Below are positions 4,253 to 42,652 of a stretch of 45,195 nt of DNA, piece after piece (position 1 is the first letter of the stretch; each line of letters starts with the position of its first letter). The DNA is taken from positions 1 to 45,195 of the forward strand of contig JAHDQI010000069.1 in the NCBI GenBank assembly GCA_018433925.1, read 5' to 3'. Made by a program: the position numbers and the translations under genes. Source of the stretch: Phycisphaerae bacterium. Its GTDB lineage: Bacteria; Planctomycetota; Phycisphaerae; Sedimentisphaerales; Anaerohalosphaeraceae. The notes under the pieces were generated by a model that searched no databases, had not been told where the DNA came from, and saw only the letters and a list, made by a program, of their open reading frames with translations.

Positions 4253-12373
<8,121 letters not shown>

Positions 12374-12480
12374 ATCTTTTCCTCTTGCTATACCTATAAC
12401 CAGAATCGGGCATGGTGCTCCCTCGTAATCCAGAAAATGACTGTGGCAACCTAACTTTAGCAAACGAATACTTGCAAACC

Positions 12481-12812: not shown

Positions 12813-12922
12813 CAGGAAGTCACCATATCTCTGCTGCAGAAAGAAAGGAAAAACTATATTTTTCGGTAAAAGTCAAAAATTGACCTCGACCGGCTGGCTG
12901 ATATAGCAGAAAAGGCATTGCT

Positions 12923-12961: not shown

Positions 12962-13087
12962 TGCGGGATATTTTTAAAGAAATATATATAAGAATATGAT
13001 AAGTTATTTCCTTAATATGACGAGATATGACTGTTATTTTTTTCTATAATGGGTAATAATGTGGAGTGCCTGTAAGAATCTGAGTAT

Positions 13088-13111
13088 ATGAGACTTGATT
13101 AATCGTCTCAT
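13088..13111. promoter_or_regulatory. Inverted repeat overlapping the -35 of the pilin-like gene
   Basis: ATGAGAC (13088-13094) and GTCTCAT (13105-13111) are perfect reverse complements separated by 10 bp. Between them sits the palindrome GATTAATC. The element covers the -35 hexamer of the predicted promoter, a position typical for a repressor operator. Confidence 0.5.
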
Positions 13112-13124
13112 TGAATGATATAAT
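13095..13124 (+). promoter_or_regulatory. Predicted promoter for the pilin-like gene
   Basis: -35 TTGATT (13095-13100) and a perfect -10 TATAAT (13119-13124) are 18 bp apart. The predicted start near 13131 leaves a leader of about 33 nt carrying GAGGGA 8 nt before the ATG at 13164. Confidence 0.6.
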
Positions 13125-13163
13125 ATAGTGTATGAAGAAGATTATTTTTGAGGGAATACTGAC

Positions 13164-14072
13164 ATGTTAAATAATTTTACTTCAAGGTGCGGCTGTTTAA
13201 GGAAACGCTCACGAGTAACAAGGGCTTTCACACTGATTGAATTATTGGTTGTGATTGCCATCATTGCCCTGTTGCTTTCGATTATAATCCCATCTGTAAA
13301 TCTGGCCAAGCGTAAAGCGGCCTCTGCCGTCTGCTTGATCAATGTAAAGAATTTGTCTCTGGCGTGGTACTCCTACCAGGAAGCCAATGACGGCCGCTTG
13401 GTAAATCCCAACACCACCAATGTGGATATTCATGGAACTCATGATGATGCTAAATACATCGGCTGGGTTGTAAATCCGATCCGGCAAGATGGAACCATGT
13501 GCAATGGGGGAGAAGGCCCCCTCAATCCCGTTACAGACGAGGATGAAATTCGAGGTATCGAAAAAGGCGCATTGTATCCGTATTTGGAAGCCCCGGACGT
13601 CTTTCATTGCCCTGCCGATAACCAGCGAAAAAGCAAAATTGACCTCAGTAGAATCTTTCGGACCTATTCCAGTCCGCGTGCCTTGAAAAGAGTCACAAAA
13701 TTTTCTAAAATCACACAACCCTCAATGCGCTTTAACTTCATAGAGGAGGCCGAAGGTCGGAATTGGAATGCAGGGACATGGGATTTTTACAACATGCCGG
13801 AGAACGGTTACTGGGAATGGCGGGATCCGGTCGGCAACAATCATGGAGACAGTGGTATTTTAGGTTTTTGTGATGGGCATGCAGAAGTTCATAGGTGGCA
13901 GGAAGCGTTTACGTTAGATCGGGTTCGATACTTTTTTGAACATGAATATATCACGGGCTATGGGAGCCCTGGCCTGAATGACGAATATTCTCGATTTGAT
14001 GCGGGGGCGCCTAAAGCCGAAAATGACCGCGACATTCAATACGTAGCCAGGAGCTGGGCAGACCGCGACTAA
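13164..14072 (+). CDS. Type IV pilin-like protein (prepilin N-terminal methylation motif)
   Basis: A 302-residue protein with a class III prepilin signal: a basic leader of about 20 residues, then AFTLIELLVVIAIIALLLS with the conserved Glu5 of the mature protein. The residue before the cleavage site is Ala rather than the usual Gly, which some prepilin peptidases accept less efficiently. After the hydrophobic helix comes a globular domain with several Cys and, near the C-terminus, GFCDGHAEVHRW, the H/DG-type end found in the large planctomycete pseudopilin families. These proteins are numerous in Phycisphaerae and are usually adjacent to glycan-degradation genes; their job is not established. 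Surface attachment, a type II secretion pseudopilin or glycan binding are options. It stands alone between the divergent CAZyme operons and has its own promoter. Confidence 0.85.
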   Translation: MLNNFTSRCGCLRKRSRVTRAFTLIELLVVIAIIALLLSIIIPSVNLAKRKAASAVCLINVKNLSLAWYSYQEANDGRLVNPNTTNVDIHGTHDDAKYIGWVVNPIRQDGTMCNGGEGPLNPVTDEDEIRGIEKGALYPYLEAPDVFHCPADNQRKSKIDLSRIFRTYSSPRALKRVTKFSKITQPSMRFNFIEEAEGRNWNAGTWDFYNMPENGYWEWRDPVGNNHGDSGILGFCDGHAEVHRWQEAFTLDRVRYFFEHEYITGYGSPGLNDEYSRFDAGAPKAENDRDIQYVARSWADRD

Positions 14073-14637
14073 TTAAGACGTCGGCATAGTTAACATGCGT
14101 GAGATTCAACGATTTGTTCTTAACAAGATCGAGTTCTTAGGATATTTGCTTCAGTCTTTTTTTTTCGAATTGGAAATTCCGGGGATGGAACATCGGAATT
14201 CATACAGAGAATCCCGATCTCCAATTGGGCGATTTGGTTTATGGACCAAGGGCGCCAAGGAAGATGAATACACTCAGGAACGAAGGATATCCCAACAAAG
14301 CAAATCCATATTGGCATCATTCTGTTCATGGAATCATATAATTTATTAGGTGATCCGGAAGCACATTATGGTTTTGGATAACCCGGAACAGCAATCTCGA
14401 ATACATGTAGAAACCCGGAGAAATAGTGTCTGTTGATCTTAGCGGGATATCAATCCATCTCGTAATTTATTATAATAATAATAAGAGATGAGAACCGACA
14501 AGACAACTTTATTGACGGGTTTTTAAATAAAAGAAAAATCAAGGATATCAAAATACGAGGCACACCATGCCCAGTAACCGGCAACGGATTACAAACAGAG
14601 GATTGAAGGAACACATTTTATACAAAAGGATATTGGG
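14073..14637. other. 565-bp intergenic region before the rightward CAZyme operon
   Basis: No supported gene; an 84-codon frame at 14095-14349 has no recognisable features. There is an inverted repeat with 7-bp arms AATTCCG/CGGAATT (14175-14181 and 14194-14200). A weak promoter-like pair, TTGGCA at 14311 and TATAAT at 14337, has a 20-bp spacer, longer than ideal. A second TATAAT lies at 14471 without a good -35. The region probably holds the promoter for the 22-kb operon, but I cannot place it firmly. I see no strong intrinsic terminator for the pilin-like gene. Confidence 0.45.
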
Positions 14638-16212
14638 ATGAGGAACGATCATCACTTGATTGCACTGTTTTTAATATCATTGAATTGTCTGGGCCTGGCA
14701 CAAGACAAAAATGTCGAAAAATGGGGAGTTTATGAGCTGTCATTGCCTGGGCCCACGGGGGGGAATCCATTTGTCGGCATTGAATTCAGCGCTGTTTTCA
14801 AACAGGGCAACCAAACCTTTGAACCGGAAGGTTTTTATGATGGCAACGGAGCATTTAAAATCCGTTTTATGCCGAATGCCGAAGGTCTCTGGACCTATCA
14901 GACAAAAAGCAACTATGATGCCTTAGACAATAAACAGGGACAGTTTATCTGTGTCCCCCCTTCATCGGGAATTCATGGCCCGGTGCGGGTGAGAAATCAG
15001 TATCATTTTGAATATGCAGACGGAACACCGTTTTTCCCTTTTGGCACAACCATTTATGAGTGGCCATTTCAATCGGATACAATGCAGGAGCAGACCATTG
15101 AAACATTGAAAACGTCACCCTTTAACAAAGTTCGTTTTTTAGTAATCCCTCCCTGGCAGGAATATTATATTGAAGGGTCGAAGGTGCTGACTTGCTTTCC
15201 GTTTGAGGGCAATTCAAAGGAGAACTGGAACTTTTCCCGATTTAATCCGGAATTTTTCCGGCGACTGGAAAGGTGTATCCTGGAGTTAAAAAAGATCGGG
15301 ATACAGGCAGAACTCATCCTGTTCAGGCCCTATGATAACGGGAAATGGGGTTTCGACACAATGGATAGGGCGACGAATGACCGCCTTCTCCATTATGTTA
15401 TTGCTCGTTTTGCGGCTTATCATAATGTGTGGTGGAGTCTTGCCAACGAAAACAGCTATATCGAACACCTGACGGATGAGGACTGGGACCATTATTTCCA
15501 GGTGGTGCAACGCTGCGATCCTTATCACCGCTTACGTTCTATCCACAATGCGGATCGGATTTATGATCATACAAAGCCCTGGGTGACACATGTCAGCCTG
15601 CAATATTACATGGCGGTCCGTTTTTTCGGGGTCTCTCCTTTGTTGCGGGACATTTATAAAAAACCGATCATTCACGATGAGATTAATTATGAGGGCAATC
15701 GGGATCGACGCTGGGGACAGCTCTCGGGCGAAGAAATGGTGTATCGGTTTTGGATCGCATATATCGGAGGCGCATACGCAACCCACGGAGAAACGATTCA
15801 ACGGCCGAACAATCCCGACTGGATATCTGTTGGTGGCGACCTGCGGGGGAAAAGTCCGGAACGAATCGCATTTCTGAGAAAGATTGTAGAGCAGGGACCG
15901 GCCCGGGGACTCGATCCAATCGATCAATATTATGAAACAAATATGGCCGGACAATCAGGTCAGTATTATTTAATTTATTTCGGCAAAGAATCTGTGAAGG
16001 AGTGGGCCTTTAAGCTTCCCCAGAAGGGACTTGAGCCAGATATGCGATTTCGCGCAGACGTAATCGATACCTGGAATATGACAATTACACCCGTTGAACA
16101 AGTATTTGAAATCGAAAAATTGAATCCTTATACCTATATTGACAGAAAGCAATCAAAAATTAACCTGCCGGGTAAACCCTACATGGCTCTGAGAATCCAG
16201 CGACTTCAATAA
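14638..16212 (+). CDS. DUF5060/DUF5605 glycoside-hydrolase-like protein (apiosidase-like TIM barrel)
   Basis: A 524-residue secreted protein (signal peptide to about residue 21, GLAQ). It has three parts: an N-terminal DUF5060 beta-sandwich (about 28-105, KWGVYELSLPGP, GFYDGNG, GLWTYQT), a TIM barrel of the DUF4038/GH140-like type (about 120-425), and a C-terminal DUF5605 beta domain (about 435-520). Candidate catalytic acids sit where clan A enzymes carry them: Glu271 in SLANENSY after strand 4 and Glu348 in IIHDEINYEG after strand 7. The related DUF4038 family GH140 cleaves apiose-galacturonic acid linkages in RG-II, so apiosidase is one possibility, but this subgroup has no known activity that I can name. 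It heads the rightward operon; the next gene starts 47 bp later. Confidence 0.8.
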   Translation: MRNDHHLIALFLISLNCLGLAQDKNVEKWGVYELSLPGPTGGNPFVGIEFSAVFKQGNQTFEPEGFYDGNGAFKIRFMPNAEGLWTYQTKSNYDALDNKQGQFICVPPSSGIHGPVRVRNQYHFEYADGTPFFPFGTTIYEWPFQSDTMQEQTIETLKTSPFNKVRFLVIPPWQEYYIEGSKVLTCFPFEGNSKENWNFSRFNPEFFRRLERCILELKKIGIQAELILFRPYDNGKWGFDTMDRATNDRLLHYVIARFAAYHNVWWSLANENSYIEHLTDEDWDHYFQVVQRCDPYHRLRSIHNADRIYDHTKPWVTHVSLQYYMAVRFFGVSPLLRDIYKKPIIHDEINYEGNRDRRWGQLSGEEMVYRFWIAYIGGAYATHGETIQRPNNPDWISVGGDLRGKSPERIAFLRKIVEQGPARGLDPIDQYYETNMAGQSGQYYLIYFGKESVKEWAFKLPQKGLEPDMRFRADVIDTWNMTITPVEQVFEIEKLNPYTYIDRKQSKINLPGKPYMALRIQRLQ

Positions 16213-16259
16213 CGATAAGACTCAGGGCCGGTTAGACAGAAAGGATTGTCGATATCATA

Positions 16260-19200
16260 ATGAAAGACAAACTGCTTGTTTGGATATTCTTCCCTGTATT
16301 TCTTTCGGCTTCTGTTCTTTGGGCATCCGTCGGCGATGAAGATGAACCTGTTCGCTTCGTGGGAGAGGCGAAGGTCTCTAACAGTGATTACGAAAACGGG
16401 TATCATGATGGACAGATGCCGGTGGCAATCGGCGTGCAGAATTATCAGATTATGCGTGCCAACCGTACTCATCCGGAGTGGTCCGACGGCCTGGGATGGA
16501 CGTATAATCATGCCCCGATGCTGGCTTATGCAAACGGGCAGTTCTATTGTCAATATTTGAATAATCCTACCGGGGAGCATATCCCTCCGGGCATGACAAT
16601 GCTGACACGTTCTTCCGACGGCAAGCACTGGACCAAGCCGCAGGTACTGTTTCCTGTTTATTTCACATCGGATCCTGAGGATGCAACCAAAATAACATTT
16701 CAGTTTATGCATCAGCGAATGGGCTTTTATGTGGCTCCGAACGGACGTTTTTTAACAATGGCCTTCTATGGTTCGCCTTATGGCGACGGTGTCGGCCGGG
16801 TTGTCCGGGAAATATATCCGGATGATTCCCTCGGACCGGTTTATTTTATCCGTGTTAATGATAATTGGACCGGTGAGGTTAACTATCCGCTTTATACCGC
16901 TTCGAGTGATGCTGGATTTATAGAGGCCTGTAAATCCTTTCTGAATGACAAAATTCGAAGAATTCAATGGTGGGAAGAGGACCACGAAGCCAAGGACCGA
17001 GATGAGTTTTATCGAGTCACATGGGGCGGTCAAACGGGGCGAAGCAAACCGGCCAAAGCGTTTTGTTTTTATACGCGCCCGGATGGAGCCGTGGTAGGTT
17101 TTTTCAAGAGTCGGTGGACGTCGATGACACGAGACCAGGGCCAAACCTGGTCACCATTGGTCCGCTGCGAAACGCTGACTTACGGAGGAGCAAAGATATG
17201 GGCACAAAAACTGGATAACGGCCAATATGCACTGGTCTATAATCCGACTGACAGCATGGCTCGCCATCCATTGTGTATTACCCTCAGCGACGATGGTATT
17301 TATTACGATCATCTTCTTAATATTCACAGTGAAGTGCCTGTCAAGCGGTTCTGGGGACGTGAAAAACGTCCCGGGGCGCAGTATGTTCGGGGCATCGTCG
17401 AGGGCAACGGCAATCCTCCCGGTGATGATCTATGGGTTGTTTATTCTTCCAATAAAGAAGATATCTGGATTTCCCGTGTGCCGATTCCGGTCCAAAGGGA
17501 GGTCCGAGGGCCTGTTCATGACGATTTCAACCAAATGGAAACCGGAGGGGTCATTGACGGGTGGAATATTTATTCACCGAAATGGTGCCCCATCGAAGTC
17601 GTGGACTTTCCGAGTGCAACTGAAAAAAGCATGTGCCTGAAAGATGCCGACGCCTGTGACTATGCGAAAGCCGTCCGAGTGTTTCAAAAATCTTCTGCTT
17701 TATCGCTTTCATTCGAACTGTATATTGAATCATCTGAACAGATTCTGGATATTGAAATTGTGTCGGCCAAAGGCGGCCGTTTGATTCAAACCCGAATCAA
17801 TCAAGACCGTCAATGGTTGGTCAAAAACGGAAATCAGGCCTATCAACCCGAAATGAGATTGAATGCCGGGCAATGGTATTCAATAAATTTTCGGGCGGAT
17901 GCATCGAAACAGCAATTTTCCGTTCAGTTGGATGGGAATTCAATTGTCAAAGACGCCTCTTTTACATCCCTCGAAGGGCTTCCGGAAAGAATTATCTTCA
18001 GGACAGGCCACTATCGGCTGACGGAGGATGTTCAGAAATATAAAAGCGGCAGTGCGACGGTAAGAGGTACAGATGAACCGGGAGCAGATGAGCCGGTTCC
18101 GGCAGCCGTGTATTATATTAAAAATTTCCAGGCAGTCGGCTCAGCGGCGTCCTTGTTACAGCCTGAGACATTCCGGAGTTATGTAGATTATTTTAACGCC
18201 ATGGAGGAGGAAAATATTGTCAACGAAATTTCAAATGCCGAATCCTGGGATTGGATGAAAGACCATATCCCTTTTTTTGAATGCCCTGACAAGACCATTG
18301 AGCAAATTTACTATTATCGTTGGTGGACCTTTCGTAAGCATTTGAAAAAGACACCGGATGGCTACGTCTTTACTGAATTTCTTGACAAGGTAGGCCACAG
18401 CGGAAAATACAATACGATTAGCTGTGCCATCGGCCATCACGTCAGCGAAGGCACCTGGCTGCGGGACCCTCGGTATATCGATCAGTACGCCCGTTTCTGG
18501 TACACCGGCAATAACGGCGGCCTGCAACCGCATCTGCACAAATACAGCAACTGGGCTGCGGCAGCATTGTATCGCCGATTCCTGGTCAATCGGGACAAAC
18601 TGTTTTTGATTGGTTTGCTGGATGCTTTGGTACGGGACTATGAGACCTGGGTAGAGAACAAAGGTTTAGAAAACGGCCTTTTCTGGCAATACGATGTCCG
18701 GGATGCAATGGAGGAATCCATCAGCGGCGGCCGAAAAGTGAAAAACATTCGCCCCCCACTGAACTGTTATATGTACGCCAATGCCGCGGCCATAGCGAAA
18801 ATCGCCGAGATGGCCGGCGACCCGAAGTTGACCCAAGAGTATACGCAAAAGGCAGCCAATCTAAAATCATTGGTTCAGGAACTGCTGTGGGATGACAGCG
18901 CCTCATTTTTCGTTGTGCGCCGCCCGGATGGAACCTTTGCCAATGTTCGTGAGGAAATCGGCTTTATCCCCTGGTATTTTAATTTACCGGACAGGGGTTT
19001 TGAAAAGGCATGGCAGCAGTTGACGGACCCCCAGGGATTCAAGGCTCCCATGGGAATCACGACCGCTGAACGTCGTCATCCGGAGTTCCGCAGTCACGGG
19101 ATTGGGACTTGCGAATGGGACGGGGCTGTATGGCCGTTTGCCACCAGCCAAACCCTCACCGCGATGGCAAATCTGTTGCGGCATTATGATCAGGCCTATG

Positions 19201-19613
19201 TAACCAACGAAGATTATTTTGAGGCATTACAGACGTATGCCCGCTCCCATCAATATAATAACAAACCCTATATCGGAGAATATCTTGATGAAATTAACGG
19301 GACATGGTTAACACCGGATTCGGACCGAAGCCGATATTATAATCATTCGACTTTTTGTGATCTCGTAATTACCGGCCTGGCCGGCCTGGTGCCCCGGGCA
19401 GATGATATTGTAGAGATCAAACCGCTGCTGCCGAGTGAAACATGGGATTGGTTCTGCCTGGACGGGGTTTCGTATCATGGGAAAATGCTTACGATTTTAT
19501 GGGATCGAACGGGCGAAAAATATAAAAAGGGGAAGGGGTTGCGTATTTTTTCTGAGGGCAGGGAAATCGGACAGGCCGACAAGCTGACACCCCTGACTGC
19601 GAAACTTCAGTAA
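16260..19613 (+). CDS. Sialidase-like beta-propeller fused to (alpha/alpha)6 hydrolase; GH143-GH142-like bifunctional enzyme
   Basis: A 1117-residue secreted protein with a signal peptide to about residue 22. Residues 30-410 look like a five- or six-bladed propeller with Asp boxes SSDGKHW (118-124) and TRDQGQTW (290-297). Residues about 420-625 form a jelly-roll/LamG-like module (starting HDDFNQMETGG). Residues about 640-1110 form an (alpha/alpha)6 domain of the MGH1/GH63-like type (GTCEWDGAVWPFATSQTL at 949-966). The order propeller, beta-sandwich, (alpha/alpha)6 and the length match, as I recall it, Bacteroides BT1020, whose GH143 and GH142 modules cleave DHA and beta-L-arabinofuranose from RG-II chain D. 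That specific assignment is inference. The alternative is an unassigned BNR-repeat protein with an MGH1-like glycosidase. The GH78 gene follows closely. Confidence 0.75.
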   Translation: MKDKLLVWIFFPVFLSASVLWASVGDEDEPVRFVGEAKVSNSDYENGYHDGQMPVAIGVQNYQIMRANRTHPEWSDGLGWTYNHAPMLAYANGQFYCQYLNNPTGEHIPPGMTMLTRSSDGKHWTKPQVLFPVYFTSDPEDATKITFQFMHQRMGFYVAPNGRFLTMAFYGSPYGDGVGRVVREIYPDDSLGPVYFIRVNDNWTGEVNYPLYTASSDAGFIEACKSFLNDKIRRIQWWEEDHEAKDRDEFYRVTWGGQTGRSKPAKAFCFYTRPDGAVVGFFKSRWTSMTRDQGQTWSPLVRCETLTYGGAKIWAQKLDNGQYALVYNPTDSMARHPLCITLSDDGIYYDHLLNIHSEVPVKRFWGREKRPGAQYVRGIVEGNGNPPGDDLWVVYSSNKEDIWISRVPIPVQREVRGPVHDDFNQMETGGVIDGWNIYSPKWCPIEVVDFPSATEKSMCLKDADACDYAKAVRVFQKSSALSLSFELYIESSEQILDIEIVSAKGGRLIQTRINQDRQWLVKNGNQAYQPEMRLNAGQWYSINFRADASKQQFSVQLDGNSIVKDASFTSLEGLPERIIFRTGHYRLTEDVQKYKSGSATVRGTDEPGADEPVPAAVYYIKNFQAVGSAASLLQPETFRSYVDYFNAMEEENIVNEISNAESWDWMKDHIPFFECPDKTIEQIYYYRWWTFRKHLKKTPDGYVFTEFLDKVGHSGKYNTISCAIGHHVSEGTWLRDPRYIDQYARFWYTGNNGGLQPHLHKYSNWAAAALYRRFLVNRDKLFLIGLLDALVRDYETWVENKGLENGLFWQYDVRDAMEESISGGRKVKNIRPPLNCYMYANAAAIAKIAEMAGDPKLTQEYTQKAANLKSLVQELLWDDSASFFVVRRPDGTFANVREEIGFIPWYFNLPDRGFEKAWQQLTDPQGFKAPMGITTAERRHPEFRSHGIGTCEWDGAVWPFATSQTLTAMANLLRHYDQAYVTNEDYFEALQTYARSHQYNNKPYIGEYLDEINGTWLTPDSDRSRYYNHSTFCDLVITGLAGLVPRADDIVEIKPLLPSETWDWFCLDGVSYHGKMLTILWDRTGEKYKKGKGLRIFSEGREIGQADKLTPLTAKLQ

Positions 19614-19654
19614 ACAAAATGAAAAAACCAAAAAACCGTGGAAGGAATAGTAAA

Positions 19655-22600
19655 GTGAAACGTTTTTTATTTTTAATTGGATTCAGTGTTGTTTTTACCT
19701 GTGCCGGCTGCCAGTTCTTTTCTAATTCTGCCGGCTCGAAACCCACTCCGGCATTACTTCGCTGTGAATACCGGGTAAATCCGATGGGGATTGATGTGCT
19801 GTCCCCTCGTTTAAGCTGGCAGATTCTCTCTGATCAGCGAAGCCAAAAACAAACGGCATATCAGGTATATGTTGCGTCGAATGAGAATCTTCTCAGGAAC
19901 AATCAGCCTGACATGTGGGATTCCGGAAAAGTTCAAAGTGATAACACAACCGCAATTGTCTACGCCGGAAAAAGTCTAAGATCCGATCATGTTTATTTCT
20001 GGAAGGTTCGAGTTTGGGACACAAGCGGCGCTTCTTCCTGTTGGAGCCGACCGGCTCAATGGTCAATGGGACTGCTCGATCCCGATGACTGGCAAGCCGA
20101 ATGGATTGGATATGACATTGAGGAAAAGCCTGTTCCGGCACCGAAAATTCTGAGTCATGCAAACTGGATATGGTCAGACTCAAATGCAAATGACAAGGCC
20201 CGGCCGGGCTCCTGTTATTTTAGAAAGTCTTTCCATCTGCCCGAAGATTGGGTCATCAAAAAAGCAGATTGTTTTTACACAGCGGATGATTTTGTTCAGT
20301 TACATGTCAACGAAAATCTGCTCAGAAGATTTCGCAACAAGAAAGTCATTTATGAAGTCTCACTGATCGATACCCTCAGACCCGGACAAAATACGCTGGC
20401 ATTTTTAGCTTCCAACGAGGGGGACAAGGATTCTCCGGCTGGTTTTCTCGCGGCGGTCAGGATCGAATCAATGGATGGTCGAATCTTGGAATTTTCATCA
20501 GATAACAATTGGCTGATGAACTCGCACGAAGAGTCCGGGTGGATGACGGATAACCATGACGACTCTGACTGGTCAAAGGCAAAGGTGATCGGCCCGCTCG
20601 GGACTGCTCCGTGGCAGGAAACAAAACCGATAAAGCGATTGCTTCCTCCGGCCCGTTATTTCCGCAGGGATTTCAAGACAAGGAATAAACAAATTGAACG
20701 TGCCTGCCTTTACGTTACCGCATTGGGAATTTACCAGTGTTTCATCAATGGGCAGCGAGTCACGGAGGATTATCTGTCCCCGGGATGGACGGATTATCGA
20801 AAGAGGGTTTACTTTCGAACGTATGAGGTGACCGATCAACTTCAAAGCGGCAATAATGCAGTTGGCGGGATTTTGGCGGACGGCTGGTATGCCGGCTATG
20901 TCGGCGGCGGATTGCGCAGAAACCATTACGGCCGCAAAACTCGTCTTTTATTACAGTTAAATATTGAATACGAAGACGGCACGAAACAGGTCATTGCAAC
21001 AGGAAAAGGGTGGAAAGCGTCGACAGGCCCGATTCTCTATGCAGATTTACTTCAGGGCGAGGGGTACGATGCGCGTCTGGAAATGCCGGGTTGGAATAGG
21101 CCGGGCTTTGACGATTCCACATGGCGGCCCGTTCTTGTCGGCGACACGGAGGTTAATCCCGCGGTACAGGCCGCTGTGACTGAACCGGTCACTGTTTTTT
21201 CAACCATCCAACCTGTTTCTGTTTCCGAACCTGTACGCGGCAAATACGTCTATGACATGGGGCAGAACTTTGCCGGGGTCGTTCGTCTTCAGCTTCGGGG
21301 CCGGGAAGGCCAACGCATACAAGTACGTCATGCCGAGCGGCTGAATCCGGACGGCACCATTTATACAACGAATCTGCGAACGGCCTCCGCTACCGATGTT
21401 TATATCTGTAAGGGAAGCGGAAAAACGGAAGTCTGGCAGCCGCATTTCACACAGCATGGATTCCAATATGTCGAAATTACCGGGTTGGATAAAAAACCGG
21501 ACCTGGACACGGTTACCGGATTGGCCCTGGCCAGTGACACCCCTGTCGCCGGCCGTTTCAAGTGTTCAGACCCGATGGTCAACCAACTCTATTCCAATAT
21601 TGTCTGGACACAGCGAATGAATTTTATTGATATTCCAACTGACTGCCCGCAACGAGATGAGCGTTATGGCTGGACGGGAGATGCGCAAGTTTATATTAAT
21701 ACGGCTTGTTACAACAATGATGTGCAGTCTTTTTTCACAAAATGGCTGATCGATCTGGCTGATGCGCAGCGTGATGACGGCCAATTTCCCCGTTATGCAC
21801 CGCTGAAGGTCAATCCCACGGATGGCGGGCCGGCCTGGGCCGATGCCGGTGTTATTTGCCCATGGACAATATATCAGATGTACGGCGACATACGCATTCT
21901 TCGAACGCATTATGACGCCATGAAAAGATTTATTGAGTTCAATCGAAAACGCTATACGAGCCGGCTTTTACCACCGGATAAATTTCATTGTTTTGGCGAC
22001 TGGCTGAATATCAACGATGAAACCCCGCACGATGTTATCTATCTGGCATATTTTGCACACAGTACAAATCTTTTCGCCGAAATTGCTGAAGTCCTGGGCA
22101 AAACAGAAGATGCCGGGTTTTATCGCGCCTTATTCGAACAACTCAAGGCCTCTTTCAGAAAAACCTATATAGAACCCGATGGTAAAATCAAAGGCGACTC
22201 ACAGACAGCCTATGTATTAGCCATCGCCTACGACCTGTTGGACGAAGCACAGAAGAAGCTGGCAGCGGATCATCTGGCCCGGCGAATCAATGAGTGCGAC
22301 GGACACCTGTCCACCGGCTTTGTCGGAACAAAGGATCTGATGCTGGCATTGGCGAAGGTCGGGAGAAATGATATGGCTTACCAACTTCTTCATAAGGAAA
22401 CCTACCCCTCCTGGGGATTTACAATTAAAAATGGCGCCACTTCCATCTGGGAACGATGGTACGGTTGGACACCGGAGGACGGTTTTGCGGATCCCGGAAT
22501 GAACTCCTTTTCACACTATTCTTTTGGAGCCGTGGGTCAGTGGATGTTTGAGAACATCGGAGGCATCAAAACAGAGGACCCCGGCTTTAAACGAATTATT

Positions 22601-22897
22601 ATTCATCCTCAGCCGGGGGGCAAACTGTCGTGGGCAAAGACATCCTATCATTCCATTCAGGGATTGATTGAGTCGAATTGGGAAATCAAGAGCGGACGTT
22701 TTAAATTGGAGGTGACAATCCCCCCAAATACAACAGCCGCTGTCTTTATTCCATCCCTAAATGCTGATCAGATTTTAGAGTCTGGAATCATGGCTCACAA
22801 TGCAGATCATGTTAGATTGTCCAGACAAGAGGGCGAATGCACGGTTTACCATGTGGGATCAGGACAGTACACGTTTAATGCACCGTGGGAACAATAA
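19655..22897 (+). CDS. GH78 alpha-L-rhamnosidase, predicted lipoprotein
   Basis: A GH78 enzyme of about 1080 residues. I choose the GTG at 19655 because GGAAGGA lies 8 nt upstream and the protein then begins with a compact lipoprotein signal (VKRFLFLIGFSVV, then lipobox TCAGC, Cys19). An ATG at 19619 is in frame but has no ribosome-binding site. The catalytic motif TDCPQRDERYGWTGD supplies Asp663, Glu669 (general acid), Trp673 and Asp676. TSIWERW and MNSFSHYSFGAVG near the C-terminus complete the active site. Compared with the first GH78 protein it carries an extra N-terminal module of about 150 residues (roughly 165-320, starting HANWIWSD), a second jelly-roll-like domain that may bind the glycan. 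It lies 41 bp after the propeller fusion gene, so the two probably act on the same polymer. Confidence 0.93.
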   Translation: MKRFLFLIGFSVVFTCAGCQFFSNSAGSKPTPALLRCEYRVNPMGIDVLSPRLSWQILSDQRSQKQTAYQVYVASNENLLRNNQPDMWDSGKVQSDNTTAIVYAGKSLRSDHVYFWKVRVWDTSGASSCWSRPAQWSMGLLDPDDWQAEWIGYDIEEKPVPAPKILSHANWIWSDSNANDKARPGSCYFRKSFHLPEDWVIKKADCFYTADDFVQLHVNENLLRRFRNKKVIYEVSLIDTLRPGQNTLAFLASNEGDKDSPAGFLAAVRIESMDGRILEFSSDNNWLMNSHEESGWMTDNHDDSDWSKAKVIGPLGTAPWQETKPIKRLLPPARYFRRDFKTRNKQIERACLYVTALGIYQCFINGQRVTEDYLSPGWTDYRKRVYFRTYEVTDQLQSGNNAVGGILADGWYAGYVGGGLRRNHYGRKTRLLLQLNIEYEDGTKQVIATGKGWKASTGPILYADLLQGEGYDARLEMPGWNRPGFDDSTWRPVLVGDTEVNPAVQAAVTEPVTVFSTIQPVSVSEPVRGKYVYDMGQNFAGVVRLQLRGREGQRIQVRHAERLNPDGTIYTTNLRTASATDVYICKGSGKTEVWQPHFTQHGFQYVEITGLDKKPDLDTVTGLALASDTPVAGRFKCSDPMVNQLYSNIVWTQRMNFIDIPTDCPQRDERYGWTGDAQVYINTACYNNDVQSFFTKWLIDLADAQRDDGQFPRYAPLKVNPTDGGPAWADAGVICPWTIYQMYGDIRILRTHYDAMKRFIEFNRKRYTSRLLPPDKFHCFGDWLNINDETPHDVIYLAYFAHSTNLFAEIAEVLGKTEDAGFYRALFEQLKASFRKTYIEPDGKIKGDSQTAYVLAIAYDLLDEAQKKLAADHLARRINECDGHLSTGFVGTKDLMLALAKVGRNDMAYQLLHKETYPSWGFTIKNGATSIWERWYGWTPEDGFADPGMNSFSHYSFGAVGQWMFENIGGIKTEDPGFKRIIIHPQPGGKLSWAKTSYHSIQGLIESNWEIKSGRFKLEVTIPPNTTAAVFIPSLNADQILESGIMAHNADHVRLSRQEGECTVYHVGSGQYTFNAPWEQ

Positions 22898-36697: not shown

Positions 36698-38242
36698 TCA
36701 GGACCCTTTCATACATTCTGAATGCTTTTGTCTTTCAAGCCAGCCATAAAAGGTCATATGACGGATGTTTTTGTCCGGTTTGAAAAAGAAGCTGGCCGTA
36801 TAGCCGACCCCAAAGAGAACCAGATGACTGTATACCCCCAGCATGTATTTGTGGTGGGTAAAATTATAGGGTCCCAGATCGATAAATCTTTCCGACGTCA
36901 GCAGCGCATACCCTGTAAATAAAACACAGGCTGCCATGCCTGCGTAAAGACCTTTGGTATTGGCCCGTATCGTAAAAAATGCCAGCATAAATAGGCCCGC
37001 AATGCCTCCTGAAAAGATCGCGTATAAAGTAAATACGGTTTTCAGAACAGTGGCCCCTTCGCTCCGGACATACCAGAAAGCCACGCACATTGCTAAAAGG
37101 CCGCAAAGGACAACGACGATTCGTCCTACGTTCAAACACTGTGGATCACTGCTGCCCGGCCTGAAACGAAGGTAATAATCCGATACACCCACGGCAGCAA
37201 GGCAATTCAGATCCGAATCAAGGCTGGACATCGCGGCGGCAATCAGCGCCGCAAGAATAAGTCCTGTAATCCCTGCCGGAAGTTCAGTCATAATAAAGTA
37301 CGGAAACACAGCATCCGCTTTGATACCCTCCGGCAATGAATGCCCCGCCCCCTGGTAATAAGACCACAGGCAGGTTCCAATAAACATAAACAACGTCCAG
37401 ACCGGCACACACAGAAGAGTTCCCATGAAAGCGGCTTTTATAGCGGCCCGATCAGATTTGGCGGCCAGAAATCGCTGCACAATGGTCTGATCCGTACCGT
37501 ATTTTTGAATCGCATAGAATATTCCATTCAGCGCCATCACGATAAAAGTCAACCGTGTAAAAGAAATATCATAGGGTCCGGTAGATATTTTATTGTTTTC
37601 CCACGCTCTCTGTAGAATGGCCGCTGGCCCTCCTTCAGGCCTGAACAACAACACACACAAACACATCAGCCCCCCCGTAATCAGCATAAATCCCTGAATA
37701 ACATCGGACCACACAACGGCTTCAATACCGCCAAGCAGTGTATAGATAATGGTAAACAGGCCCAGCACCAGGATCACCATATACGTGTTATAACCGGTCA
37801 TTTTACTTAACGCCAATGCCAGAAGATAAAAAACCGTTCCCATTTTCGAAAAATGGGCCAACGCAAACGCTAAAGAACTATATAAACGCGCAAAGTATCC
37901 AAATCGTTTTTCAAAATATTCATAAGCACTCAACCCGATGATCCTGCGATAACACGGCACGATAAACCAAATGATCCCCAGCAGTGCGATTGGAACCATG
38001 ATTCCCTGCACCAAACGGATCCAGTTGGAAGCATACCCTTCTCCCGGATACGCCAAGAATGTCACGCTGCTTATCAGCGTTGCCAGCAGACTCATCCCCA
38101 GCGCCCAGGCCGGAATATTTCTGCCGCCCGCGAAATACTCATCCGTCGAATTCTGTTTCCGTGAAAAGTATCCCCCAATAGCAATGATCACAGCCAGGTA
38201 AACCAAAACCACACAGTAATCCAAAATGTGTAAACCGGGCAT
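36698..38242 (-). CDS. SSS-family sodium:solute symporter (acid-sugar operon)
   Basis: A 514-residue membrane protein of the SSS family: STDEYFAGGRNIPAWALGMS and ISSVTFLAYPGEGYA near the N-terminus, GGIEAVVWSDVIQGF in the middle, and AAAMSSLDSDLNCLAAVG at the sodium-site region. About 13 helices are apparent. AGAAAGGAAAT precedes the ATG. It is the last gene of a five-gene operon, 33 bp after the DUF1537 kinase, so its likely cargo is the acid sugar consumed by that pathway. SSS members include sialic acid (2-keto-3-deoxy acid) transporters, which fits the idea that a related keto-deoxy acid is imported, but the cargo is an inference. Confidence 0.93.
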   Translation of the reverse strand: MPGLHILDYCVVLVYLAVIIAIGGYFSRKQNSTDEYFAGGRNIPAWALGMSLLATLISSVTFLAYPGEGYASNWIRLVQGIMVPIALLGIIWFIVPCYRRIIGLSAYEYFEKRFGYFARLYSSLAFALAHFSKMGTVFYLLALALSKMTGYNTYMVILVLGLFTIIYTLLGGIEAVVWSDVIQGFMLITGGLMCLCVLLFRPEGGPAAILQRAWENNKISTGPYDISFTRLTFIVMALNGIFYAIQKYGTDQTIVQRFLAAKSDRAAIKAAFMGTLLCVPVWTLFMFIGTCLWSYYQGAGHSLPEGIKADAVFPYFIMTELPAGITGLILAALIAAAMSSLDSDLNCLAAVGVSDYYLRFRPGSSDPQCLNVGRIVVVLCGLLAMCVAFWYVRSEGATVLKTVFTLYAIFSGGIAGLFMLAFFTIRANTKGLYAGMAACVLFTGYALLTSERFIDLGPYNFTHHKYMLGVYSHLVLFGVGYTASFFFKPDKNIRHMTFYGWLERQKHSECMKGS

Positions 38243-38275: not shown

Positions 38276-39451
38276 TTACTTTTCATCTCTTTTTTCCCAT
38301 ATGATTTTCGGCCAGGGATAACTGCCCGGCTTTATCGTCAGATGAATAGGATCGCTTTCCAAAACCTTCATCCGAACAACTCCGGGGCCCAGCAGATCAC
38401 AAGGTTCAAAACGAGTCCACCCAAAGCAGGCGGCGATCTCAGAAGCGGTCGCTCCTCCCTCCGCAAATAATTCGTTCAATGGCATCCTCTGAAGTACGGT
38501 CAATACGATGTGCGCTAACCTTCGGCGAAGTGTTTCGGCAAACTCCGCCTTTCCGGCAACCTCACGATCAATCGCAATGAATACATGATCCCAATGTTTA
38601 AAACTTCCGATGATCTCATCGGTCCATTTCTGAAAGGAAGCATCCTCGGGACAGTTCGATCTAAAAAGTCCCTCCGGCATTCTGCAAACTCTCCCCCCAA
38701 GACGCTCTGCTTTTCGTAAGGCCTGGCGGCTGGTATTCGAACTGCTGCCGCAGATCAATAATGCTTTTTGATCTAAGCGATATGGGCTTTCTTCCACATT
38801 CTTTTTCCTCACAAATCCTTTGCCCTCGAGAATCGCCTCAAAAAAGTCTCCCGCTCCGGCCATCATGGTTTGTTCATCCGTTCGTTCTGACCACCGGATA
38901 AGATCTTCTTTCGTTTCGGCCTGGCCGATCACAATTCCTTCGCATGGAAACGGCTGATCGCTTTTTAGATAATGGATTTGACGGGCTCCGGACAAAGCCG
39001 GCATATCAAGAACACGGGAGGTTCTTGCGGGATATTCCGGATCCTTGGCAAAATCCGTATTACTCAGCAGCTTTCCGTTTATCAGGTAATTGCCGTCATA
39101 TACCACCCGTCCTTTAGAGGGATTTGCCGGAACAAGCAAAACTCTCGCAGTCCTCATGACATCCCTCAGCGCTTCCAATTCGCCGGCAACGGGTCCGCGA
39201 AGAACCGAGTCGGTCTTTTTGTAAATCCATTCAATCGGCAGCCGCGATGCAGTCAGGCGACAAGCAACATCCCGTATCACCCGCCCGGCCGCTTCCGGCG
39301 AAAAAGATCGGGTATCTGTATCAATAACCAGCAACTCCGCATCGCTTTCAGCACAAAACCCCCTCTGTAGCTCCACGCTTAAGCCATAGGCAAGACCAAG
39401 GCCCCCAATCTCCCCGGCCCCAGTCAGGTCATCCGCAATCACAACAATCAT
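38276..39451 (-). CDS. DUF1537 four-carbon acid sugar kinase family protein
   Basis: A 391-residue cytoplasmic kinase. Family motifs are clear: IADDLTGAGEIG at the N-terminus, IYKKTDSVLRGPVAGEL (substrate-side Lys-Thr-Asp-Ser), GNYLINGKLLSNTDFAKDP, LLICGSSSNTSRQAL, and EGGATASEIAACFGW in the nucleotide-binding C-terminal domain. Characterised members phosphorylate D-threonate, L-threonate, D-erythronate or 3-oxo-isoapionate with ATP. It is slightly shorter than the usual 420 residues or so. It lies 23 bp after a PdxA-family dehydrogenase, the partnership of the D-threonate pathway (DtnK with PdxA2), which makes D-threonate or a close C4 acid the best substrate guess. The Shine-Dalgarno is weak, hinting at coupling to upstream translation. 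Confidence 0.92.
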   Translation of the reverse strand: MIVVIADDLTGAGEIGGLGLAYGLSVELQRGFCAESDAELLVIDTDTRSFSPEAAGRVIRDVACRLTASRLPIEWIYKKTDSVLRGPVAGELEALRDVMRTARVLLVPANPSKGRVVYDGNYLINGKLLSNTDFAKDPEYPARTSRVLDMPALSGARQIHYLKSDQPFPCEGIVIGQAETKEDLIRWSERTDEQTMMAGAGDFFEAILEGKGFVRKKNVEESPYRLDQKALLICGSSSNTSRQALRKAERLGGRVCRMPEGLFRSNCPEDASFQKWTDEIIGSFKHWDHVFIAIDREVAGKAEFAETLRRRLAHIVLTVLQRMPLNELFAEGGATASEIAACFGWTRFEPCDLLGPGVVRMKVLESDPIHLTIKPGSYPWPKIIWEKRDEK

Positions 39452-39474: not shown

Positions 39475-40500
39475 TTAGGATACAAGTTGAACGGCATACT
39501 CAATCGCATGGATCAGACTTTCCTCATTGGCTGTTCCCTTGCCCGCCTGATCGAAAGCAGTGCCGTGATCCACTGATGTTCGAATGATCGGAAGGCCCAG
39601 CGTAATATTCACCCCCTTAACCGATTCCCATTTCCGGGTCTGATTATTAAAAACAAATCCTGTCACTTTCACGGGAATGTGTCCCTGATCATGGTACATC
39701 GCCACAGCAATATGATACTGCCCTCCTTTTACCTTCGAAAACAAAGTGTCCGCCGGCACAGGCCCCTCTGCTTGAATTCCAAGAGATACGGCGCTTTTTA
39801 CAGCCGGTATGATTTCTCTTTCTTCCTCATCTCCAAACAGCCCCCCTTCCCCAGAATGCGGATTTAAACCCGCCACACCAATGACCGGTTTTGCGATACC
39901 AAGTCGCCTGCATGCATCATCCGCCAATTGAATAACTTCCAGAACCCTTTCTTTCGTGACAAGCTCGCACGCGCGTTTTAGCGAAACATGCGTAGAAACA
40001 TGCACCACCCTCATGTCCCCTTCCACGAGAAGCATGGCATATTGTTTTGTCTTTGTATAATCAGCAAAGATTTCTGTGTGGCCTGCATACGAGTACCCCG
40101 CCTGGTTTAAGGATTCCTTGTTAATCGGCCCCGTCACCGACGCATCGATTTGACCGTCCATCGCAAGCGCAATTACTTTTTCAATGGCCTCAAAAGCCGC
40201 CTTCCCCGCCATCGACGAAACCTTCCCATACTCGAAAGCTTCGATGTTGACATTGTTTAAATCCAGAACCTCCGCCACTCCGTATTGAAATAGTGATTCA
40301 CTGGGCCGGGTAACAGCTCTTATCTCAAAACTGGCTCCCACAAGACCTGCCGCCCGTGTCATGACTCCGGCATCGCCGACAATAATCGGCCTGGCGATTT
40401 CATACACTTTTTTATTGGCCAGTGCTTTGGCGGCTATTTCCGGGCCGACACCGGCAGGATCGCCCATCGTAATTCCAAGGATCGGTCGTCTTTCAGGCAT
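39475..40500 (-). CDS. pdxA2: PdxA2-like 4-phospho-acid-sugar dehydrogenase
   Basis: A 341-residue NAD-dependent oxidative decarboxylase of the PdxA family. Motifs: GITMGDPAGVGPEIA at the N-terminus, GHTEIFADYT (His141), and metal ligands His171 (STHVSL), His215 (LNPHSGEGG) and His270 (AMYHDQGH). A GTANEES motif follows near the C-terminus. PdxA proper makes pyridoxal precursors from 4-phosphohydroxythreonine; PdxA2 enzymes beside DUF1537 kinases oxidise D-threonate or D-erythronate 4-phosphate to DHAP and CO2. The kinase neighbour, and the absence of pdxJ or other vitamin B6 genes, support the catabolic role. It sits 36 bp after the aldolase gene and 23 bp before the kinase. Discriminating PdxA from PdxA2 by sequence alone is uncertain. 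Confidence 0.9.
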   Translation of the reverse strand: MPERRPILGITMGDPAGVGPEIAAKALANKKVYEIARPIIVGDAGVMTRAAGLVGASFEIRAVTRPSESLFQYGVAEVLDLNNVNIEAFEYGKVSSMAGKAAFEAIEKVIALAMDGQIDASVTGPINKESLNQAGYSYAGHTEIFADYTKTKQYAMLLVEGDMRVVHVSTHVSLKRACELVTKERVLEVIQLADDACRRLGIAKPVIGVAGLNPHSGEGGLFGDEEEREIIPAVKSAVSLGIQAEGPVPADTLFSKVKGGQYHIAVAMYHDQGHIPVKVTGFVFNNQTRKWESVKGVNITLGLPIIRTSVDHGTAFDQAGKGTANEESLIHAIEYAVQLVS

Positions 40501-40536: not shown

Positions 40537-41442
40537 TCAAGAGTAGATTCCCGTTTCCATTTGTTTTTTGAGATCAGCAATATCTTCTTCTTGAAGTGTT
40601 TCAAGAGGAGCCAAAACCGTTGCCCCGCAAAATCCAAGAAGATGCATTGCCGCTTTTAAGGCCGCTAATGACTGGCCCAATGACCTGTTTTTTTGATAGG
40701 ATTGTGAAATACGGTCGGTTTGGTGCTGAAGTTTTTCTGCTGCAGACAGATGGCCGTCCAGGGCCGTTTCAAAAAGAGCTTTATAAAGTTGCGGCTGCAG
40801 ATTCGCGGCACTCGGGACAATCCCCGCTGCTCCCAGCGAAACGGCCCTGGCCGAAAGAGCTGCACAGCCGACAACATAAGCAAAATTGCTTCGCCCGGAA
40901 AATCGCCCGATCGCGGCCTCCAGTCGTCCGGGGGTATTCTCGGAATCCTTCATACCCACAATTCGCTCATGAAGACTCAATTTGGCTGCTGTATCAATCG
41001 AAATAGAAAGCCCCGTCGTCGCGGGAATATTATAGATCATCAAGGGCCCGGGTACACAGTCGGCTAAGGTCATGAAATACCTGACGATCTCATCCTGACC
41101 AAGCGGATAATAATAAGGGGCGTGAGCGACTAAAACATCAGCCCCAAGATCCATATAGCGCTTTGCCGCCTGAATAGACTCATCCATGCAGTTCCCGGAT
41201 ATGCCTGCATAAACAAGGGCCCTGTGTTTCGTGTCTTCGACAGTACTCTCAACCAGCTTCGCTTTCTCCATGAAAGAGATTGAAGCCGCTTCTCCAGTCG
41301 TCCCAAGGACAAAAATACCGTCCATGCCGCCGGCAATGAGATGGTCGACAATTCGATGAACCCCTTCCGGATCAATCTGTCCTGCTGCCGTAAAAGGGGT
41401 TACCATGGGTACAATTACACCTTGACATCTTCCGTTAGCCAT
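40537..41442 (-). CDS. DHDPS/N-acetylneuraminate lyase family aldolase
   Basis: About 301 residues of a class I pyruvate aldolase. Schiff-base Lys165 is in VGMKDSENT, Tyr137 in MIYNIPATTG, and the pyruvate-binding motif is GTTGEA (47-52). The Arg that true dihydrodipicolinate synthases use to bind aspartate semialdehyde (E. coli Arg138) is Thr142 here. It is therefore unlikely to be DapA and more likely cleaves a 2-keto-3-deoxy sugar acid to pyruvate and an aldehyde. I choose the ATG at 41442 (MANGRCQG), which overlaps the dehydrogenase stop by 8 nt. A longer frame to 41493 adds a leader that overlaps the neighbour. Its place between an alcohol dehydrogenase and PdxA2 suggests that its aldehyde product feeds those enzymes. 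Confidence 0.92.
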   Translation of the reverse strand: MANGRCQGVIVPMVTPFTAAGQIDPEGVHRIVDHLIAGGMDGIFVLGTTGEAASISFMEKAKLVESTVEDTKHRALVYAGISGNCMDESIQAAKRYMDLGADVLVAHAPYYYPLGQDEIVRYFMTLADCVPGPLMIYNIPATTGLSISIDTAAKLSLHERIVGMKDSENTPGRLEAAIGRFSGRSNFAYVVGCAALSARAVSLGAAGIVPSAANLQPQLYKALFETALDGHLSAAEKLQHQTDRISQSYQKNRSLGQSLAALKAAMHLLGFCGATVLAPLETLQEEDIADLKKQMETGIYS

Positions 41443-42592
41443 TCTTCCATGCGCTCCTGTAAATTGCCAATGCATCCTTATACGTAATCTCACGAAGATT
41501 ATTTTTCAAAAGTCTTGTAACCGTCATCGCGGATTCGGCCATGGCCTCAAGGTCTTCATAAGGAATGTTCAATTCCGACAGCTTCGAGGGGATCCCGCAC
41601 TGATCTGACAACTCGCGGACAAGAGCCAATCCCCGTTGAGCCGTTTCCCTGTCATCCCTTCCTTTTTCCGCACCCAGAGCTTCCGCAATTCCTGCATATC
41701 TTTCGGGAGCCGCCTGCAAATTAAAATGCATGACATGCTGCAAGAGCACTGCATTCGATACGCCATGAGGAATATGATATTTCCCCCCCAGCGGGTAGGC
41801 CAATGCATGGACGGCCCCGGTATTCACGGGACCCAGGCAAAGCCCGCCATACATACTCCCCAGGGAAAGCTTTTCTCTGGCCTCCGCATCCAAGCCGTTT
41901 TTATAAGCGATTGCCAGATTGGCCGCGATTAGCCGAATCCCTTCCAGCGCGTAATGATCTGTAATCGAATGAGCAAATCGGTTCGCATAGGCCTCGATAC
42001 AATGGACAAGTGCATCCATCCCTGTGGCCGCTGTTACAGACGCAGGAACGGTATGAGTCAACAGCGAATCAATATAGGCCGCATCCGCGACAAGATGCCT
42101 ACTGACGACACCTTTTTTTAATTGATCCAAAGAATCAAAAAGGATCGCATTGGGTGAAACCTCGCTGCCGGTCCCCGCCGTTGTGGGCAAACACGCAAGA
42201 GTGACGCCTCGGCTGTTTAGCTTGTCAATGCCCAAAACATCCATGATTGACTGCTCACTATCGCACAAGGCAGCCATGAGTTTGGCCAGATCAAGAACGC
42301 TTCCTCCGCCGAATCCGATAACGGCATCGGCCCGAACCTTTCGGCAGGTCTCCAGTCCCTCTTCCAGCATCTCTATTGTGGGTTCCCGGTCCCCTGCCTG
42401 CCATACATTCGCAGGAATCCCTTTATTCTTGAATTGCTCAACCAGAGGCATAACAAGCGGAACAATGGGCTCTGATGTCACGATTAACACCCGGCTGCAG
42501 CCAAGGCACGATAAATCTTCTGCGACCTGTTCGCTGCAGCCATTGCCGAAAACCAATTTCTGTGGTTGACGTAAAGTGACACTTCTTTCCAT
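41435..42592 (-). CDS. Iron-containing alcohol dehydrogenase (group III)
   Basis: A roughly 385-residue NAD(P)-dependent Fe-ADH. The N-terminal dinucleotide domain has GFGGGSVLDLAKL (94-106) and TTAGTGSEVSP. Metal ligands match FucO spacing: Asp193, His197 (MDALVHCIEAY), His262 and His276 (HALAYPLGG, HIPHG). Such enzymes interconvert small aldehydes and alcohols. In this operon it would reduce the aldehyde made by the adjacent aldolase (or lactaldehyde from rhamnose). I choose ATG 42592 (MERSVTL), where family homology begins; a longer frame starts with TTG at 42628. The Shine-Dalgarno is weak at either start. It is the first gene of the leftward acid-sugar operon, placed just after the terminator of the LamG gene. 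Confidence 0.92.
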   Translation of the reverse strand: MERSVTLRQPQKLVFGNGCSEQVAEDLSCLGCSRVLIVTSEPIVPLVMPLVEQFKNKGIPANVWQAGDREPTIEMLEEGLETCRKVRADAVIGFGGGSVLDLAKLMAALCDSEQSIMDVLGIDKLNSRGVTLACLPTTAGTGSEVSPNAILFDSLDQLKKGVVSRHLVADAAYIDSLLTHTVPASVTAATGMDALVHCIEAYANRFAHSITDHYALEGIRLIAANLAIAYKNGLDAEAREKLSLGSMYGGLCLGPVNTGAVHALAYPLGGKYHIPHGVSNAVLLQHVMHFNLQAAPERYAGIAEALGAEKGRDDRETAQRGLALVRELSDQCGIPSKLSELNIPYEDLEAMAESAMTVTRLLKNNLREITYKDALAIYRSAWKNG

Positions 42593-42652
42593 TGCACTCA
42601 CTTCGTTTGCCAATCCTTCTTTAGGCAATGCCGGATTTCCCTGCCTTCAAGT

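Follow-up and report, generated by a model that had tools for sequence, protein, structure and literature searches.

Few plant polysaccharides are as complex as RG-II, and what is known of its breakdown comes mainly from gut Bacteroides. According to the accessible text of PMC6811678, an enzyme of B. thetaiotaomicron has two sites, of which one frees L-Araf from chain D of RG-II and the other then detaches DHA from the galacturonic acid chain; the nucleophile of GH143 is a Tyr-Glu pair, given there without residue numbers. The available portion of PMC7263609 lists BT_1020 as a GH142 beta-L-arabinofuranosidase, states that the catalytic residue of GH142 was not identified, and describes HypBA2 as retaining and its structural relatives as inverting. 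These accounts agree with the GH143 and GH142 activities that the initial annotation had given for BT1020. A survey, in the part available of PMC7922503, placed GH142 and GH143, together with their RG-II companions, primarily in Bacteroidetes.

The window analysed here, a stretch of 45,195 nucleotides from a planctomycete of the Sedimentisphaerales, encodes a relative of BT1020 (Table 1). The open reading frame begins with ATG at 16260, its stop codon ends at 19613, and no internal stops were present, and the antisense strand, read in one frame, had numerous stops. The N-terminus was hydrophobic and, judged by eye, resembled a signal peptide. Pfam domain order matched the combination of propeller, beta-sandwich and MGH1-like (alpha/alpha)6 domain that had been read from the sequence of these 1117 residues: PF24067 Beta-prop_BT_1020 at residues 44-244 (E 2.9e-83; 279.5 bits against a cut-off of 27), PF13088 BNR_2 at 275-358 (E 3.3e-9), PF22585 Sialidase-like_CBM at 435-591 (E 2.8e-25), PF22422 MGH1-like_GH at 716-1030 (E 7.7e-87) and PF03633 at 1048-1103 (E 1.4e-7). 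In a search of NCBIfam, no model scored above its own cut-off, and a search of PHROGs gave no match. The expectation that automated annotation would probably return only "sialidase" or "hypothetical" need not hold, as current Pfam names the propeller after BT_1020.

Table 1. Features of the window, with coordinates, strand and the basis of each assignment.
Feature	Coordinates	Strand	Basis
GH127-type beta-L-arabinofuranosidase	4253..6283	-	Nearest solved structure 5mqo
DUF5060-apiosidase-like-DUF5605 glycosidase, directly upstream of the BT1020 gene	14638..16212	+	Pfam; nearest solved structure 4n0r
BT1020-like GH143-CBM-GH142 protein	16260..19613	+	1117 aa; Pfam, PDB search, 47.1% identity to BT1020
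GH143-type five-bladed propeller, predicted DHA hydrolase	16389..17495	+	Pfam; right edge approximate
Sialidase-like CBM beta-sandwich, PF22585	17562..18032	+	Pfam
Codon of Glu706 (BT1020 Glu694, GH142 residue bonded to bound beta-L-Araf)	18375..18377	+	Alignment; Glu in 77/77
GH142-type (alpha/alpha)6 domain, PF22422 MGH1-like_GH, predicted beta-L-arabinofuranosidase	18405..19349	+	Pfam and PDB
C-terminal domain, PF03633	19401..19568	+	Pfam
GH78-type alpha-L-rhamnosidase, directly downstream of the BT1020 gene	19619..22897	+	Pfam
SSF sodium:solute symporter, predicted DHA importer	36698..38242	-	Profile matches, locus comparison
DUF1537 four-carbon acid sugar kinase, predicted D-threonate kinase	38276..39451	-	Profile matches
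PdxA2-like dehydrogenase	39475..40500	-	Nearer PdxA2 than other PdxA
DHDPS/NAL-family class I aldolase, predicted DHA aldolase	40537..41493	-	Catalytic Lys and GTTGE kept
Fe-type alcohol dehydrogenase, predicted D-threuronate to D-threonate reductase	41435..42628	-	Profile matches, locus comparison

The likeness to BT1020 extended beyond the shared layout that had been proposed. In a search of all PDB sequences, BT1020 of B. thetaiotaomicron (5mqr/5mqs) aligned with residues 47-1113 in a single stretch (1033.6 bits, E printed as 0), with similar length, identical domain order and 47.1% identity over 1039 aligned positions; the (alpha/alpha)6 domain itself scored 418.8 bits over chain positions 791-1102. 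The next real relative was HypBA2 (6m5a), a GH121 beta-L-arabinobiosidase, whose (alpha/alpha)6 and C-terminal domains aligned at 51.6 bits; unlike the window protein, it has another specificity and lacks the BT_1020 propeller. A structural comparison with BT1020, suggested by the initial annotation, added little. BT_1020 (5mqr) ranked first among solved structures against an AlphaFold2 model built from 20 sequences (mean pLDDT 77.5, pTM 0.57; E 4.3e-95), but the overall superposition was poor (whole-chain TM-score 0.51, rmsd 22 A), which we ascribe to probable misplacement of the domains in the model.

Of the five published residues at the GH142 ligand site of BT1020, Glu694, Trp943 and His1019 were kept as Glu706, Trp953 and His1029, whereas Tyr702 was replaced by His713 and Gly805 by Ala816; the published BT1020 numbers equal the PDB chain index plus 1 for four of the five, with Glu694 as the exception. 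In the alignment, Glu1007 sits where HypBA2 has Glu713. Propeller residues Tyr271, Tyr327, Tyr375, Glu239, Glu240 and Glu400 were identical in all 77 aligned sequences, and every acidic residue tested was kept in the window copy. If the published Tyr-Glu pair is among these invariant tyrosines and glutamates, it is present in the window protein. Residue counts cover 75 of 80 loci; L100, L105, L111, L125 and L155 were left out for having no single open frame, their in-frame stops lying between the GH143 and GH142 halves, as expected of two adjacent genes. The absence of a significant match or the loss of catalytic residues had been named as evidence against the BT1020-type assignment; instead, the match was full length, three of the five ligand-site residues were identical and both changes also occurred in some Bacteroidota homologues.

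His at the Tyr702 position was found in 7/7 named planctomycete copies and in only 2/68 Bacteroidota copies. Together with Ala at Gly805 and the latitude left by 47% identity, this could reflect a BT1020 homologue of shifted specificity, acting on another furanoside or ulosonic acid, for example in an algal or bacterial polysaccharide of anaerobic sediment; in the accessible text of PMC12282258, a Verrucomicrobium GH139 homologue of an RG-II enzyme was inactive on the substrates tested. We regard such a shift as improbable, given that the remaining ligand-site residues are invariant, that more RG-II-type enzymes occur in the window and genome, and that a C4 acid cassette common to Bacteroidota GH143 loci suits DHA. 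The two changed positions are ligand neighbours; since His occurs in 2/68 and Ala in 6/68 Bacteroidota copies, they were not taken as defining GH142. Ala816 also stands where 7/7 named planctomycete copies keep Gly, as might be seen in a relic without activity or in a relative that binds sugar; with the same Ala in those six Bacteroidota copies, a 1117-codon open frame and all tested acidic residues kept, both of these readings are most improbable. On the Pfam, PDB and alignment evidence, the protein is very likely a GH142 and GH143 enzyme that would act on RG-II chain D, and it belongs to a known kind.

The company of the gene is also of RG-II type, with GH127, three GH78 and four GH2 proteins in the window and GH106 elsewhere in the genome. 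The DUF5060 glycosidase directly upstream, which together with the DHA-type cassette distinguishes the window from BT1020, adjoins a BT1020 gene in G025, G059, G005 and L089 as well. A GH140 apiosidase label for it was unsupported: an enzyme of the BT1012 type would be expected to carry a C-terminal Collagen_bind_2 domain (PF12904), which was not found in the whole genome, and the nearest structure was 4n0r.

Between 36698 and 42628, the window holds five genes of a predicted DHA cassette, among them an aldolase whose true start is probably internal to its open frame. A D-threonate pathway of DUF1537 and PdxA2 proteins was reportedly described by Zhang et al. in 2016. PMC7954711 cites that study. 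The window has the same kinase and PdxA2 pair, but adds a preceding aldolase and reductase and a link to a glycosidase. The PdxA2-like dehydrogenase scored 287 bits with PdxA2 (2hi1), 278 with D-threonate 4-phosphate dehydrogenase (6e85) and 188 with other PdxA; against the curated model NF002891 it scored 319, short of the cut-off of 583. Because the DUF1537 kinase scored 115.5 bits against the D-threonate kinase model NF047819, whose cut-off of 450 was not reached, we suggest that it works like a D-threonate kinase, not that it is one.

These genes suggest how chain D, in which beta-L-Araf-1,5-DHA is borne on a galacturonan backbone, may be used. In the putatively secreted planctomycete orthologue, the GH142 domain would remove the terminal L-arabinofuranose, and the GH143 propeller, using the retaining Tyr/Glu mechanism known from sialidases, would then release DHA from the backbone. 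The SSF transporter would import this DHA, and the DHDPS-type aldolase would split it into pyruvate and D-threuronate, which the Fe-type alcohol dehydrogenase would reduce to D-threonate. The DUF1537 kinase would phosphorylate D-threonate, and the PdxA2-like enzyme would oxidise and decarboxylate the product to dihydroxyacetone phosphate. Homology, domain order, conserved active-site residues and the recurrent linkage of cassette and GH143 in two phyla are observations; all enzyme activities, the sequence of reactions in the cassette and the localisation are inferred. In Fischer bookkeeping, D-lyxo DHA gave D-threonate after pyruvate-aldolase cleavage and reduction; applied to Kdo, the rule gave D-arabinose, matching the known product of Kdo cleavage. 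The assignment of the cassette to DHA is likely, and the window probably contains a complete outside-to-inside DHA route ending in pyruvate, dihydroxyacetone phosphate and CO2, an unnamed pathway common to Planctomycetota and part of Bacteroidota. In the literature searched, with most subscription papers outside its scope and sources available in part, no description of DHA catabolism was found. The route is a prediction, testable with the five gene products.

The initial annotation took the presence of this operon in the same window as independent support for both assignments, and the association held in other genomes. The cassette recurs beside GH143 genes in Bacteroidota, and linkage is seen in two phyla, with the order Fe-type alcohol dehydrogenase, aldolase, PdxA, kinase and transporter identical in the window and in Bacteroidota. 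The family sampled around a Draconibacterium centre comprised 140 genomes; 16 carried the cassette transporter (E<=1e-150), and these same 16 were the only ones with a GH143 match of at least 394 bits, a split chosen post hoc, with no matches between 357.2 and 394.6 bits. Both genes lay on one contig, 2.5-22.7 kb apart, in 14/16 of these genomes; in G484, a Draconibacterium, 16.5 kb separates the transporter from a BT1020-type gene. Without the split, the transporter was found in 16/31 GH143 genomes and in 0/109 others of this family, as well as in 0/383 of a class sample, these absences being slightly uncertain since it was scored at up to 10 candidate places per genome in the family and up to three in the class sample. 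In an order-level planctomycete sample, the cassette aldolase (at least 41% identity) occurred in 6/10 GH143 genomes versus 1/88 others. All p-values for association are inflated by the relatedness of the genomes.

The match is not one to one. The BT1020 gene was present and the cassette not found in G001, G003, G004 and G059; in Bacteroides ihuae PF24067 was present and PF07005, the kinase, not found. The DUF1537 kinase was not found in 25/40 named GH143 genomes, including B. finegoldii, B. faecis and B. xylanisolvens; these loci were hand-chosen from 80 (39 of Bacteroidota type, 1 planctomycete), and 15/40 is not a random rate. G046 has the cassette, with PF24067 not found, beside a different BNR_2/PA14 protein. 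Such genomes would fit a cassette for a different substrate, be it D-threonate itself, some other aldonate or Kdo, its linkage to GH143 reflecting only general pectin clustering. We consider this unlikely in view of the shared gene order and the transporter's absence from the GH143-free family genomes and the class sample; Kdo in particular is disfavoured by stereochemistry, as its product, D-arabinose, requires neither DUF1537 nor PdxA. If the cassette does serve DHA, GH143 genomes without the kinase must handle DHA otherwise or leave it. In two phyla, GH143 can serve as a marker in the genome by which this cassette of five genes is recognised.

The planctomycete copies formed one clade with support 1.0, not nested in Bacteroidota; it comprises ten full-length or near-full rows, of which L088 and G002 represent one genome, and weak sub-cut-off PF24067 matches in distant planctomycetes were set aside. 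Recent horizontal transfer from gut Bacteroidetes was ruled out by this separate clade. With anaerobic planctomycetes also carrying a full BT1020 orthologue, the range of these enzymes widens beyond Bacteroidetes. Prolixibacteraceae-type Bacteroidota (L105, L208-L211, L213 and L217) likewise have GH143 and GH142 domains and the cassette, with GH127 nearby in several, but their GH143 and GH142 are mostly two adjacent genes and not one fused gene.

The BT1020-type gene encodes 1117 residues without internal stops. In a search against the PDB, residues 47-1113 were matched in one stretch by the Bacteroides thetaiotaomicron enzyme BT1020 (5mqr/5mqs) at 1033.6 bits, with 47.1% identity over 1039 aligned positions; the GH121 enzyme HypBA2 (51.6 bits) was the sole other meaningful relative. 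An AlphaFold2 model built from 20 input sequences was of moderate confidence (pLDDT 77.5), and its first-ranked solved structure was BT_1020 (E 4.3e-95). The BT1020 layout proposed in the initial annotation was thus confirmed by the Pfam domain order, the single-stretch match and the level of identity. The predicted RG-II chain D enzyme is itself of a kind already known; the predicted DHA pathway linked to it is the part that deserves pursuit.

Coordinates of the features discussed, in the window unless a locus is named
Feature	Position	Strand	Description
BT1020-type gene	16260-19613	+	Pfam, in order: BT_1020-type propeller, BNR_2, sialidase-like CBM, MGH1-like (alpha/alpha)6, GH65-type C-terminal domain
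Cassette	36698-42628	-	transcribed leftward
Split transketolase	900-2704	-	two genes; MFS sugar transporter adjoins
Asp/Glu racemase-like protein	250-903	-	adjoins split transketolase
Ig + LamG protein	42722-44848	-	adjoins cassette
L069 (G005, same genus)	2618-6027		BT1020-type gene split over two overlapping frames (596 + 577 aa); frameshift or assembly error
L074 (G092)	12152-18966		three tandem GH143 genes without GH142 part (616, 661, 612 aa); third cut by contig end
L079 (G046)	12428-15256		cassette-adjacent BNR_2 protein that also has matches of PA14 and FGE-sulfatase type; may be a DHA-type hydrolase of another sort

The excerpted text of PMC12282258 describes an RG-II homologue of GH139 from Verrucomicrobium that lacks both activity and a catalytic acid, which warns against naming function by homology alone. 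At the GH142 ligand site, where published BT1020 numbers equal the PDB chain index plus one for four of five residues, the window protein retains Glu706, Trp953 and His1029 and carries tyrosine-to-His713 and glycine-to-Ala816 changes. Among 75 aligned loci from the best 80 of at least 557, the Glu, Trp and His showed zero variation; the Tyr-to-His change occurred in 7/7 planctomycete versus 2/68 Bacteroidota rows, and Gly-to-Ala in 6 of the 68 Bacteroidota rows. Glu1007, opposite HypBA2 Glu713 in the phmmer alignment, was invariant across rows. For GH143, the excerpt of PMC6811678 describes a five-fold propeller with a sialidase-type tyrosine-glutamate pair and a retaining mechanism, and gives no residue numbers. 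Propeller residues Tyr271, Tyr327, Tyr375, Glu239, Glu240 and Glu400 were identical in 77/77 aligned rows; the GH143 pair is therefore kept, provided that it is among them. At L100, L105, L111, L125 and L155, GH143 and GH142 appear to be separate neighbouring genes, of which the second has a signal-like start of its own.

The window is the entire 45195-base contig C279 of a metagenome-assembled genome (3.76 Mb, 98.8% complete). The GH143 propeller family PF24067 was present in 11/98 close relatives and in all searched genomes of the host's genus (one copy cut by a contig end), and scored above cut-off in 8/392 genomes sampled across the phylum. The best 80 of at least 557 confirmed BT1020-type loci in the genome collection comprised 7 planctomycete and 73 Bacteroidota-type loci, the closest named sequences among them being Sedimentisphaerales/Phycisphaerae MAGs (L086-L092). 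The planctomycete rows formed one clade (support 1.0) beside the Bacteroidota rows. A Bacteroidota-type locus, L129, lies in a MAG labelled Staphylococcus, a label that is probably wrong.

Besides an Fe-ADH and an SSF transporter, the window cassette encodes a DHDPS-type aldolase, a PdxA and a DUF1537 kinase. The aldolase has both the Schiff-base lysine and the GTTGE motif, and the PdxA is closest to PdxA2 and to D-threonate 4-phosphate dehydrogenase. In NCBIfam the kinase was matched best by D-threonate kinase, at a score under cut-off. Aldol cleavage of DHA between C3 and C4 would yield pyruvate and a four-carbon aldehyde acid, and reduction of the aldehyde would, by stereochemical bookkeeping, give D-threonate. 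Identical bookkeeping applied to Kdo gives D-arabinose, the known product. A DUF1537/PdxA2 pair characterised in 2016 work by Zhang reportedly uses D-threonate. Since cleavage and reduction would end in the substrate of that pair, every cassette gene has a predicted step and none is spare. DUF1537 acts on four-carbon acid sugars, as cited in the excerpt of PMC7954711.

The entire cassette, or most of its genes, recurred in planctomycetes G002, G005, G025, G046, G084 and G092. Among 98 planctomycete relatives, the aldolase (at least 41% identity) was found in 6/10 GH143 genomes versus 1/88 others (Fisher 1.3e-6, relatedness ignored). The G092 GH143 genes begin ~5 kb beyond the cassette and have no GH142 part; thus, the cassette link is to the DHA-hydrolase half. 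Four planctomycete genomes carried the BT1020 gene without the cassette, and G046 carried the cassette without PF24067, a different BNR_2/PA14 protein adjoining it.

Among the best 80 of at least 557 loci, cassette genes adjoined the BT1020 gene in two named loci, L102 (Tannerella sp.) and L105 (Sunxiuqinia sp.). In 40 named GH143 genomes, author-chosen from these 80 rather than randomly sampled, DUF1537 was present in 15, beside PdxA and the same transporter in 15/15, with the aldolase in 13 and Fe-ADH in 11. The kinase was not found in the other 25/40, where DHA must therefore be handled otherwise or left unused. In a class-wide sample (n=395), GH143 exceeded cut-off in 12 genomes and the transporter was found in 2, both within those 12 and one being the chosen centre. 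In the 140-genome family of a Draconibacterium centre genome, GH143 occurred in 31 genomes; the 16 scoring at least 394 bits, a split chosen post hoc, were exactly the 16 with the transporter (E<=1e-150). Relatedness inside the family means fewer independent events than 16. In 14/16 both genes lay on a shared contig, separated by 2.5 to 22.7 kb. In 12 newly fetched regions of the 16, the cassette genes followed the window's order of Fe-ADH, aldolase, PdxA, kinase, transporter (L212 incomplete at a slice edge, L216 at a contig end); at L210, L211, L213 and L217, GH127, cassette and GH143/GH142 stood in succession. This recurrence with GH143 in planctomycetes and Bacteroidota upholds the earlier view that the nearby operon supports the BT1020-type assignment. 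A second GH143 group in the family scored 357 bits and less; the transporter was absent in the 15 genomes having only this group, which may have another substrate.

The window also contains a GH127 gene (nearest solved structure 5mqo), three GH78 and four GH2 genes, with a DUF5060 glycosidase gene immediately upstream of the BT1020-type gene; GH106 genes lie elsewhere in the host genome. A GH78 gene begins five bases past the BT1020-type stop codon, and GH78 started within 400 bases downstream in 53/73 Bacteroidota loci among the best 80 of at least 557. The two genes of the split transketolase may encode the subunits of an apulose-4-phosphate transketolase that would act on apiose from RG-II. 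A tktN-like gene (77% identity) shares a contig with the cassette genes of L203 (G479). Relatives of the racemase-like protein (37-38% identity) occur near non-cassette DUF1537 genes in L187 and L202, and in both G025 and G005 the cassette is bordered by genes similar to the Ig + LamG gene.
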